Positions 38,377 through 63,607 of a stretch of DNA of 64,000 bases are shown piece after piece (positions within the stretch are counted from its first letter, which is position 1; every line of letters begins with the position of its first letter). The notes beneath the pieces were generated by a model. The model did not search any database, was not told where the DNA came from, and was given only the letters and a program-made list of their open reading frames with translations. The translations under genes and the position numbers were made by a program. The stretch lies in NCBI RefSeq assembly GCF_015100155.1, contig NZ_JACKZA010000004.1:62001-126000 (forward strand). Direction: 5' to 3'. The DNA comes from Acidithiobacillus sp. HP-2 (GTDB lineage Bacteria > Pseudomonadota > Gammaproteobacteria > Acidithiobacillales > Acidithiobacillaceae).

Positions 38377-38574
38377 CCTGGAAACGGCCGTTGGCCGTTA
38401 AGCTTTTTGCGCCAACGTCCCTTGCCTGTTGTTCTACGGCTCATCCTGCTGTCAGGAGAGAACTCGCCCTTTGGGCTCAAACAGCTCTTCTGAAGGGCGC
38501 AGGATTTCACGAAGAACAACAACGGCGCGGGCCAAAGTCGCGGCAAAGCTTAACGGCCAACGGCTGCTTCCAGG
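38377..38574. repeat. About 200-bp inverted-repeat element (MITE-like or structured RNA)
   Basis: The two ends are inverted copies of one another: the 20-base core GCCGTTGGCCGTTAAGCTTT at 38387-38406 recurs exactly on the other strand at 38545-38564, within near-identical arms of about 36 bases (38377-38412 and 38539-38574, both ending CCTGGAA/TTCCAGG). Inside, GTTGTTCT (38428-38435) pairs with AGAACAAC (38513-38520), and GCCC-TTT-GGGC forms a central hairpin. I could not find a clear target duplication. It begins one base after the HAD stop codon. Short open frames inside are by-products of the symmetry. Confidence 0.7.
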
Positions 38575-59200: not shown

Positions 59201-60280
59201 TTAATGGCTTTCATAACCGGCCAGATGGGTGATGCGCTTGCGGAACACCCAGATTTGATAAACGTTATAAGTAATCATCACCGGCACGAATCCCGTCATG
59301 AACAGGGTAAGGATAGCCAGGTCATTGGCCGGGTTACCGCCCTGACTGATGGTCCAGGTCTGCGGAATGATGTAGGGGAAATTGGTGGCCCACATCCCGC
59401 CCCACATGAACAAGACAATGGCGCCACACCAGAGCAGTGCCGCGAAATCGCGGTGGGCTGCGTGATTGCTCATCATTTTGTAGGCAGAAATCAGGATGGC
59501 AATGAGCAGGATCAGCCAGCCAAACCAGCCGCTCCCCGTCCACTTGGCGGCATCGGGCATGATCGCGTAGGACCAGATCAAGGTGATGACTACCGCCGCC
59601 AGCGCCAGGAAAGAAAACAGAGTGGCAGACTTGTGAGCCTTCTGGTAGATGGGATCATCCTGCTCAAAACGGGCACAAAGGTACAAGGTGCCTGCCAGAC
59701 CGCCGGCGATCAACGCCCCAATCCCTGTCCAGATGCTGAAAGCAGAAAGAAAGCTCAGGGCGTTGCCGGAAAAGTGGGGAACCGTATTCACAAACGGGTC
59801 ATTGGCCACCTGAATGCCTTGCGCGTTGCCGGTATTCATCTGAAAGCCCAGCAAGGTAGCTCCAAGTGCAATCCCCGCAAAAAGGGCCGCGACCAGACTG
59901 CCAAGGCCAAACATGAAGCCCCAGAATTTGCGGCTGCTTTTGGCGTGGACATGAAATTCAAAGGCCACCGCCCGGGAAATGATGCCCCAGAGCGCAAACA
60001 TCAACGGGATCATCAGATAATTGAATGTGGACCCATAAACCAGAGGAAAGGCCCCGAAAATCACACCACCGGCCACCACCAGCCAGGTTTCGTTGGCATC
60101 CCAGGTGCCTGCCATGGAAGACATGACGGCCGCCCGATCATTCTCATTATTGAGGAGCAGGGAAAATACGCCGGCCCCCAGATCCGCACCGTCGAGAACA
60201 ATGTAAATGACGAAGAAAACCCCCAGCAGTATCCACCAGAATGTACTTAAGGTGCTATGTATACGAAATATTTCATGCAT
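59201..60280 (-). CDS. cydB: Cytochrome bd-type quinol oxidase subunit II
   Basis: Second subunit of a bd-type (or cyanide-insensitive CIO-type) quinol oxidase. Eight or more hydrophobic segments; motifs WWILLGVFFVIYIVLDGADLG, GTWDANETWLVVAGGVIFGAF and FALWGIISRAVAFEF are typical of CydB. Length 359 residues, complete. Its partner gene cydA, 11 bases upstream, is truncated at the 5' end by the IS200-like element, so this copy may be untranslated or without a working complex. Followed by an intrinsic terminator. Confidence 0.93.
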   Translation of the reverse strand: MHEIFRIHSTLSTFWWILLGVFFVIYIVLDGADLGAGVFSLLLNNENDRAAVMSSMAGTWDANETWLVVAGGVIFGAFPLVYGSTFNYLMIPLMFALWGIISRAVAFEFHVHAKSSRKFWGFMFGLGSLVAALFAGIALGATLLGFQMNTGNAQGIQVANDPFVNTVPHFSGNALSFLSAFSIWTGIGALIAGGLAGTLYLCARFEQDDPIYQKAHKSATLFSFLALAAVVITLIWSYAIMPDAAKWTGSGWFGWLILLIAILISAYKMMSNHAAHRDFAALLWCGAIVLFMWGGMWATNFPYIIPQTWTISQGGNPANDLAILTLFMTGFVPVMITYNVYQIWVFRKRITHLAGYESH

Positions 60281-60291
60281 GGTATCGATCC

Positions 60292-61200
60292 TCAGTCCAG
60301 CTTGTTCATGGTCGGTTTGGCGAAAGTCGGCTTGGCAATTCCGCCACCGGATGGATGTGCATCATGATCCGAAGCACCAATGACCGGGCTGGTCATATCG
60401 GGTCCTTTTTGGATAACCCGGGTAAAGAAGTACCAGGCACCCCCCCAAACCATCAGTTCGAAAATGATGTAGCCAATCAGCCAGAAGGATTCAGCAGTCA
60501 CCCCCATGTGGCTGACACCCTGCCAGGTCCGCATCAGGTTATAAACAACCCAGGGCTGGCGGCCGATTTCACGTGTCCACCAGCCGGTCCAGACGGCGAG
60601 ATAAGGCAGGAATCCACTGAACACCAGCAGACGCAGGAACAACGGGTTCTTACGCAGATGTTCTGCAGTCAATTTCCCCCGCAAGCGCAACCAGTTACCC
60701 CAGAGTGCCATGAAAAACAGGAAGAAGCCGATGGTGACCATCACCCGGAAGGCATAAAAGGGCACCCAGACATTGGGTCGATCATTCGGAGCAAAATGAT
60801 CCATACCGGTGACTACTCCGTCCCAGGTATGGGTTTCGAGCAAGCTGAGAACATGGGGAATCTGGATGGAGAACAGATTTTTTCCTGCTGAAACATCGGG
60901 AATGGCAATCAGATTCCAGGACGTATTGGGTTTGCCGTTCGGTAGATAGGTGTGGAAATGGCCTTCCATGGCTGCGAGCGAGGTGGGCTGGTCGTGTGCC
61001 ACTTCCCGACCCAGTTCGTCACCAATAAAAATCTGCAGTGGCGTGATAATGATCAGCGCCAGTAAAGTGGGCTTCAGGAGCTTGGTAAACAGATCTGCAT
61101 GACGATTTTTGAGGATGAACCAGGCGCTGACTGCCGCAAAGAAAAACAGCGCTAATTCTACGGTAGCTACCCACATATGCGGAAAGCCGATAGTAAATAT
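60292..61200 (-). pseudogene. cydA: 5'-truncated cydA (quinol oxidase subunit I)
   Basis: Encodes only the C-terminal 300 or so residues of CydA. The frame enters from the insertion element with IFTIGFPHMWVAT, whose His corresponds to a haem ligand, and continues through FIGDELGREVAHDQPTSLAA, VPFYAFRVMVTIGF and GRQPWVVYNLMRT. The missing N-terminal part would contain the first membrane helices and another haem-ligand His. Family members are about 450-520 residues long. An internal ATG at 61176 gives a 294-codon frame but not a working subunit. Break lies at about 61200. Confidence 0.85.
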
Positions 61201-61840
61201 CTCCCGGCAAAGCCGGGAGCTTTAGTTCGTGAGCCGCTCAAAGCGGCTTAAAACGGGGACGCTAACGCGGCCCCTCAGTTTTGGCGCCACCACTGGGTGG
61301 CCCGGATCAACTCCATATGTTCAACTGATCTACTCGTTCATCCTCTTTTTCCTGATGGCGAATATAATCTCGAATCATCGCCTCATCTCTACCCACCGTC
61401 GATACAAAATACCCACGCGCCCAAAAATGCTGGCCCACGAAATTACGCTTCCGTTCACCGTAAGTCCGCGCTATATGGATCGCGCTCTTGCCCTTGATGT
61501 AACCCACCACACTGGATACTGCGTACTTCGGCGGTATCGAAATCAGCATATGAACATGGTCTACCATCAGATGCCCTTCTTCTATCCGGCTTTCCTTATG
61601 CCGGGCCAAAGCCCGAAATACCTCCCCAAGATCATTCCGTAACTGACCGTACAACACCCTACGTCGGCACTTCGGAATAAATACTATGTGATATTTGCAC
61701 TCTCACTTGCTGTGCCTTAGGCTCAATCCTTCGTCCATCGGTTTCTCCTTCATCGTGTGCTTGGCGGCTCACAACGTCGGTTCTCCGATGGACTCCCCTA
61801 TATGTCAAACATCTACTGTCACCCCGGCAGAGCCGGGGGA
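61201..61840 (-). mobile_element. IS200-like insertion element
   Basis: About 640 bases with one transposase gene (minus strand) and no tnpB, as in the IS200 group. Hairpins lie at both ends: CTCCCGGC-AAA-GCCGGGAG (61201-61219) and CCCCGGC-AGA-GCCGGGG (61822-61838); the first is downstream and the second upstream of tnpA. A further hairpin (AGCCGCT-CAA-AGCGGCT, 61232-61248) follows the gene. Exact ends are uncertain by several bases since this family makes no target duplication. It joins truncated cydA to truncated soxA. Confidence 0.8.
61307..61753 (-). pseudogene. tnpA: IS200-type transposase with in-frame stop
   Basis: Y1 HUH transposase by DHVHMLISIPPKYAVS (HUH-like HVH), GYIKGKSAIHIARTYG, HFWARGYFVSTVGR (catalytic-Tyr region nearby) and EDERVDQLNIW. 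The true N-terminus begins near MDEGLSLRHSK, but the next codon, Trp in relatives, is TGA here (61703-61705). The open part downstream starts at 61657 and lacks the first strand. Thus one base change has probably inactivated the gene, unless the stop is read through. Confidence 0.8.
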
Positions 61841-62357
61841 TTTCCTATTTTTGGTTAACAACAAAACCGGTCAGGTGGTCACGACTCAGATGCGTTTGAA
61901 TAGTTGTCGGGTTGAAAATCATCTTCAACCTCTCAAGTATGGGAGCGGCTCCATGATTGCTCTGGATACCTACTTTACTTCGCTGTCCAACGGTATGCCG
62001 GTGGATATCAAAGTACAGGGGCCAGGCGCCGTTAAAGCCTTTGAAGAAGGGAAGGCCAATTACTTCATGAAACGCGGACAACTCAACTTCAGTTGCGCGA
62101 CCTGTCATGTGGCTTATGCTGGTAAGTATCTGCGAGCCCAGATTATTTCTCCATTGTTGGGCCAAAGTGCGCATTATCCGACTTATCGGGCCGCTTGGGG
62201 AGCAGTCAATACCTTTGAAAAACGTTTCCAGGGCTGTGACAAAAAAGTGGGTGCGATGCCGCAAAAACTGGAAAGCGTCAATTATCGCAATCTGGAATAT
62301 TTTATGTCCTACATCAGTAATGGCATCAAAATCAATGTGCCTGGTTACCGCCCTTGA
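61841..62357 (+). pseudogene. soxA: 5'-truncated soxA (thiosulfate oxidation cytochrome)
   Basis: Encodes the last 170 residues of SoxA, a periplasmic c-type cytochrome that, with SoxX, attaches thiosulfate to SoxYZ. Visible: KTGQVVTTQMRLNSC, LKYGSGSM, the haem motif SCATCHV and the active-site cysteine region KRFQGC, ending INVPGYRP. The signal peptide and first half are missing; the open frame only continues upstream through IS sequence to 61695. It is followed by a cytochrome c maturation gene, as in sox clusters. Confidence 0.8.
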
Positions 62358-62425: not shown

Positions 62426-63607
62426 ATGTCTACCGAAAGCTCTGAAATCCGACACCTACTGACCTTTGGTGGTATGCGTGCTGAAGGACGTCTTGCCGCT
62501 CAGTTATGGGCAGCTTTTCTGACCATCGGTGCTTTTTTGGTCTGGTATTTGTTTCGGGCCGATTTTTGGATGTGGCAGTTTATTGTTTTGGGTCTGTGGT
62601 ATGTGGGCCTGATGTGGTTTGGAATCCGCTGGCCGGCCTTCAGAATCCTGTTTTTGACCGTTATAGGGATTGCGGCGATTGGTGTGGCGCTTTATCAGTC
62701 AGGATACACAGCCGCAAATAATGCGCTGCTGTATTATGTGCTCCAAAGTAACGCCATGTTTTACTGGATGAGTGGGGCGATACTGATCAGCGCCATAGGA
62801 TATTATCGTTATTTATTCAGCGGTAATCAATCGGCTGGGGACTGGGGGCATCGTTTTGCCTGGATTACTGTAGCTCTGGGTTTTGCGGGCCTCGCCATTC
62901 GTTGGCAGCAGACTTACGTCGGTCATCCCTCCTGGGGACATATTCCGGTAACCAACATGTACGATGCGATGGTTCTCTTGTGTACGACTACGACCCTTTT
63001 TTACCTGTATTACGAAGGCCAGAGTAAAAATCGGGGGCTGGGTGCTTTTGCCATGCCGATGATTCTTGTTGCCGATATTTTTCTGGTCTGGGTGGGTGTC
63101 GCCTATCATCAGAATCAGATTCAGCCCGTGATTCCGGCGTTGCAGAGCTTCTGGATAAAACTGCATGTTCCCTGTGAATTTGTTGCCTATGCCAATTTTT
63201 ATCTGGCCGCCATGGTGGGTGTTGCTTATTTGTTGAGAGATCGGGCGGAACGTACCGGAAATGCTTTGGTGCGGCGTCTTCCGGACTTGAACCGGCTGGA
63301 ACGCATTATGGGTTCCATGGTGATGTTCGGGTTTCTCTTTTTCACGGCAGGCACCATTCTCGGCGCCGTGTGGGCCGCCAAAGCCTGGGGCGGTTTTTGG
63401 TCCTGGGATCCCAAGGAAACCTGGGCCTTGATTGTCTGGTTGAATTACGCGGCTTATTTGCATATGCGCAGTAACAAGTCTTTTGGGCAACATAACAAGG
63501 GACGCAAACTGGCTTGGTGGGCGGCTATCAGTCTGGTCACGGTCACGTTCTGCTTTATTGGTGTGGATCTTTTCCTGGGCGGGCTTCATTCTTACGCCAA
63601 GCTGTAA
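62426..63607 (+). CDS. ccsA: System II cytochrome c maturation protein, ResC/CcsA type
   Basis: Polytopic membrane protein that handles haem and, with ResB/CcsB, attaches it to CxxCH motifs on the periplasmic side. About eight hydrophobic segments; the haem-binding WWD-type motif is GGFWSWDPKETWALIVW, and His residues occur on the neighbouring loops. Length 393 residues. AGGAG is eight bases before ATG 62426. Related genes sit in Acidithiobacillus sox clusters, so it probably served the cytochromes of the truncated sox locus. Databases often name this type CcsB. Confidence 0.9.
   Translation: MSTESSEIRHLLTFGGMRAEGRLAAQLWAAFLTIGAFLVWYLFRADFWMWQFIVLGLWYVGLMWFGIRWPAFRILFLTVIGIAAIGVALYQSGYTAANNALLYYVLQSNAMFYWMSGAILISAIGYYRYLFSGNQSAGDWGHRFAWITVALGFAGLAIRWQQTYVGHPSWGHIPVTNMYDAMVLLCTTTTLFYLYYEGQSKNRGLGAFAMPMILVADIFLVWVGVAYHQNQIQPVIPALQSFWIKLHVPCEFVAYANFYLAAMVGVAYLLRDRAERTGNALVRRLPDLNRLERIMGSMVMFGFLFFTAGTILGAVWAAKAWGGFWSWDPKETWALIVWLNYAAYLHMRSNKSFGQHNKGRKLAWWAAISLVTVTFCFIGVDLFLGGLHSYAKL

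Follow-up and report, generated by a model that had tools for sequence, protein, structure and literature searches.

Insertion sequences of the IS200 group encode a Y1/HUH transposase of about 130-150 aa with an HVH motif and a tyrosine at its usual position, carry a hairpin near each end in place of terminal inverted repeats, lack tnpB and insert 3′ of a fixed tetranucleotide without target duplication. For IS608 this target tetranucleotide is TTAC. In the IS200/IS605 family a guide rule applies, according to which the tetranucleotide located 5′ of each hairpin foot matches the cleavage site (PMC6006769). Chromosomal inversion and translocation mediated by insertion sequences (IS) are reported for Shigella (PMC8072062). 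Misassembly at repeats equal to or longer than the reads is documented as well, even in finished genomes (PMC5771137).

The present analysis concerns a window of 64,000 nucleotides from Acidithiobacillus sp. HP-2, corresponding to bases 62001-126000 of contig C43 in a genome of 48 contigs and 3.2 Mb. A preliminary description had noted an IS200-like element flanked by cydA on the minus strand and soxA on the plus strand, each without its 5′ part, and this arrangement is confirmed as present in the assembled sequence. The 3′ part of cydA, encoding cytochrome bd subunit I, lies at 60292..61192 on the minus strand and covers positions 177-418 of the PF01654 profile (E 3.7e-72); it is followed downstream by an intact cydB (59201..60280, minus strand). 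The 3′ part of soxA lies on the plus strand at 61855..62357, covers TIGR04484 positions 46-211 (E 2.2e-53) and starts with TTAA, the target site of the element, and an intact ccsB (62426..63607, plus strand) is found downstream of it. The element between them was placed correctly in the preliminary description, but its extent, given as 61200-61840, was off by about 10 bases: it comprises 662 bp at 61193..61854 on the minus strand, with the left end (LE) at 61854 and the right end (RE) at 61193. These boundaries were set by means of empty sites in relatives and of full-length matches (1-662) in other genomes of the genus; full-length relatives with 90-96% identity occur in four of these genomes.

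The only gene of the element is tnpA (61307..61738, minus strand), encoding a Y1/HUH transposase with the HVH motif and the tyrosine in the usual place. In profile searches the uninterrupted 143-aa allele of other copies matched PF01797 at positions 2-121 (E 1.1e-38) and the interrupted fragment of the window copy matched NF033573 (E 2.5e-31). The nearest solved chains are the transposases 2ec2 and 2f4f and the IS608 TnpA. A subterminal hairpin is located at the left end (CCCCGGC-TCT-GCCGGGG, 61822..61838, minus strand) and another one at the right end (CTCCCGGC-TTT-GCCGGGAG, 61201..61219, minus strand), and in DNA folding both are more stable than shuffles, with z values of -2.2 and -5.7, respectively. 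Immediately 5′ of the hairpin feet we found AAAT(C) on the left and AAAG on the right; as judged by eye, AAAT with the site TTAA and AAAG with the end TTAC agree with the guide rule (PMC6006769). In each of the seven copies of the genome the left end directly follows TTAA. In the complete relative G016, the empty sites of cydA and soxA consist exactly of the left flank, ending in TTAA, and the right flank, with no base lost or duplicated. On account of the subterminal hairpins at both ends, TTAA before LE, the exact empty sites and the Y1/HUH tnpA, the element bears the hallmarks of the IS200 group of the IS200/IS605 family, and like the members of this group it inserts 3′ of a fixed tetranucleotide without target duplication and has no tnpB. 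It differs from IS608 in its target, TTAA instead of TTAC, and in the window copy tnpA is interrupted by a nonsense codon.

This nonsense codon, TGA at codon 12 (61703-61705), is shared by the copy on C6, whereas the other three of the five full copies read TGG (Trp). The five full copies vary at one base only, G or A at element position 152, and the A allele is found on the left ends at cydA 5′ and soxA 3′. Of the two copies with the nonsense codon, that in the window bears the left end of the soxA insertion and that on C6 the left end of the cydA insertion, so one of these insertions may be derived from the other, moved by transposase provided in trans or made from an internal start. As a linkage marker the G/A position was uninformative on which right end belongs to which left end.

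Searching the contigs of the genome, we found both missing 5′ halves beside other copies of the element. That of cydA (profile positions 1-175 at C6:32866-33387, the half itself at C6:32866-33383) and that of soxA (C1:71694-71813, profile positions 1-44, ending at C1:71814) each directly abut a further copy. When joined via the empty site, the cydA halves give one open frame that covers the cytochrome bd profile in full (1-418, E 5e-143), and the soxA halves give one open frame encoding a whole SoxA; in both cases the reading frame continues across the joint without loss or gain of a base, as in G016. Since each pair of joined halves gives one open frame, the insertions into cydA and into soxA are real, which bears out the earlier proposal that each of the two genes had received a copy of the element. 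Relative to G016, the cydA copy is inserted in plus and the soxA copy in minus orientation.

Altogether, the genome holds seven near-identical copies, of which five are assembled through (C43, C6, C44:3185, C13 and C1) and two end in broken contigs; four contig ends (C14, C4, C17 and C27) stop inside the element. By comparison with relatives, the 14 flanks were sorted into left and right partners, the gene names FIST, anmK, aroE, pstC/pstA and ndvB-like being assigned by reading translations. The natural pairs are C6.LE with C43.RE at cydA, C43.LE with C1.RE at soxA, C1.LE with C44.RE upstream of aroE, C13.LE with C6.RE at the FIST gene, C14.LE with C13.RE at pstC/pstA and C4.LE with C27.RE at the ndvB-like gene. 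Relatives support these six of the seven pairs; the seventh, C44.LE with C17.RE in an accessory ORF, was assigned by elimination and by an open frame across the joint, with no confirming relative. At the FIST site the left flank includes about 7.3 kb of extra DNA absent from G016, and the bases adjoining the site match. The partners of each pair always lie on different contigs. All five spanned copies join flanks that are not partners, shifted by one step along the chain C14-C13-C6-C43-C1-C44-C17; under a random matching of seven, the chance that all five spanned copies are mispaired is 48%.

The junction in the window had originally been explained by recombination between the copies in cydA and soxA, with inversion or deletion; in the case of inversion, the reciprocal junction 5′ soxA - IS - 5′ cydA is predicted. 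This junction is absent from the genome. Instead, the 5′ half of cydA is joined to the FIST-domain gene (C6) and the 5′ half of soxA to the region normally upstream of aroE (C1), which on C1 ends in anmK and a dispersed repeat. A single inversion between the cydA and soxA copies would account well for a 3′-3′ junction and is in line with the opposite orientations of the two sites in G016; as in IS-mediated events of the kind reported for Shigella (PMC8072062), two unrelated half-genes would then flank one IS. However, a two-copy event of this kind leaves a reciprocal junction, and here each 5′ half has a third party as its neighbour, in joins which are themselves mispaired. With five of five spanned copies mispaired, a single two-copy recombination cannot explain the junction, and, with the assembly taken at face value, we rejected the simple inversion as a complete account and ascribe hardly any probability to it. 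The fused cydA-soxA order was not seen in any of 17 named soxA loci, which with few exceptions come from Acidithiobacillus or its close relatives: here the two parts of soxA stand side by side (in one locus, a contig end cuts the 5′ part), and neither cydA nor a related tnpA was found within their fetched flanks.

To the real, ordinary IS200 insertions in cydA and soxA, a short-read assembler quite probably added wrong joins at the 662-bp repeat, whose copies are identical to one base. The preliminary description had named a join made in assembly at a repeated IS as a serious alternative; with all five spanned copies mispaired it has become the better reading. According to this explanation, the seven copies entered cydA, soxA, the ndvB-like gene, the accessory gene and three intergenic sites, each 3′ of TTAA, which the exact empty sites in G016 show for cydA and soxA, and presumably by the single-stranded mechanism of the IS200 family. 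Coming from one flank, the assembler would then have passed through the element and continued into the flank of another copy, because the 662 bp of identical sequence were presumably longer than the reads. With each flank used once, all five spanned copies would have been given an exit that belongs to another copy, and the flanks that remained would appear as broken contig ends. Most likely, the cydA-soxA join does not reflect an event in the chromosome; the two genes are probably each just interrupted at their own locus in the cell.

Several observations favour misassembly. The 14 flanks form seven natural pairs, and no such pair is joined by any of the five spanned copies; the two parts of cydA, and likewise those of soxA, meet in frame exactly as in G016; and the natural pairing restores the G016 order around the sites (C1-C43-C13-C6 at about 803-994 kb and C1-C44 at about 174-447 kb). 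Signs of trouble within the element itself point in the same direction: the last 30 bases of the C17 end are the Nextera adapter sequence CTGTCTCTTATACACATCTCCGAGCCCAC, retained in the public assembly, the C14 end is a fold-back, and C4 and C27 stop there as well. The adapter points to Illumina reads. Moreover, the five full copies vary at one base only, and misassembly is documented for repeats at least as long as the reads (PMC5771137). Contig breaks, wrong joins and genes cut at the repeat are shared with the IS repeat misassembly in Porphyromonas gingivalis described there; in contrast to that case, the wrong joins could here be traced to their partners as one chain of shifted flanks from the contigs alone. 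On the other side, if the library inserts exceeded 662 bp, one would expect a good assembler to resolve the copies, and five wrong joins out of five would then be odd. Scrambling of bacterial chromosomes by IS is also well known, and the genome differs from G016 at about 43-57 kb of C1 without an evident repeat, so the lineage may have real rearrangements.

A rival reading is a real permutation of the chromosome by serial homologous recombination that involved six or more copies of the element, in which case cydA 3′ and soxA 3′ would now be true neighbours. The copies are near-identical and lie in opposite orientations compared with G016, an inversion between cydA and soxA would yield the observed 3′-3′ junction, each flank is used once in the assembly as in a true permutation, and further differences from G016 are present. 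If the loose ends C14 and C17 are joined, the pattern becomes a six-member cycle that needs at least five exchanges. We regard this history as unlikely: at least five events would have to have occurred in very recent copies and to have left no natural junction among the spanned ones, the simple reciprocal junction is absent, and the adapter and the fold-back at contig ends within the element show a failure of the assembler at this place. A mixed population, with the natural order in some cells, IS-mediated inversions in others and minority paths taken by the assembler, would not show in the assembled contigs, which give a single path per flank. The contamination estimate is low (0.17), however, the full copies differ at one base, and minority paths would have to win at five of five copies, which makes this possibility very improbable.

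Over long distances the order departs in part from that of G016: the stretch of C1 below about 50 kb corresponds to 2.29-2.42 Mb there, and for the far ends of C6 and C44 matches elsewhere were obtained as well. At about 43-57 kb of C1 there is a switch from sequence matching G016 at 2.29-2.42 Mb to sequence matching it at 0.80 Mb. We considered another misjoin at a repeat for this break, and the 40-52 kb searched held no strong repeat save a 327-bp match of 90% to C45; the break may be a real rearrangement. A topology test, in which the assembled joins were placed on G016, would give two circles under the assumption of full colinearity. It was dropped as a proof, since colinearity with G016 is lost in the far parts of C1, and possibly in those of C6 and of C44, and since G016 offers no clear place for the accessory site.

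If the junction is an artefact, the gene order, the synteny breaks and the broken genes at the five spanned copies are unfit for inferring rearrangements, and what is left is ordinary, namely IS200 insertions in one of several cydA copies and in one of two soxA copies. Genes for subunit I of bd-type oxidases are numerous in the genome, with six further full-length cydA-type genes (C4, C25, C6, C33, C11 and C22), and there is a second complete soxA. With these other complete copies at hand, neither the loss of cydA nor that of soxA need be harmful. If, on the other hand, the assembly is true, a tiny element with tnpA only would be a major driver of rearrangement in Acidithiobacillus. The pairing of flanks over all copies of an element, in which left and right flanks are matched via a complete relative, offers an inexpensive check on findings of this kind.

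We also observed a dispersed sequence, about 135 bp long and predicted to form strong hairpins, in the window between two ORFs (38438-38549, C43:100438-100549) and on C1 adjoining the element (C1:72477-72627). The one stretch tested gave no convincing Rfam match. Many copies of this sequence, roughly 85-97% alike, are present in the genome and in three relatives.
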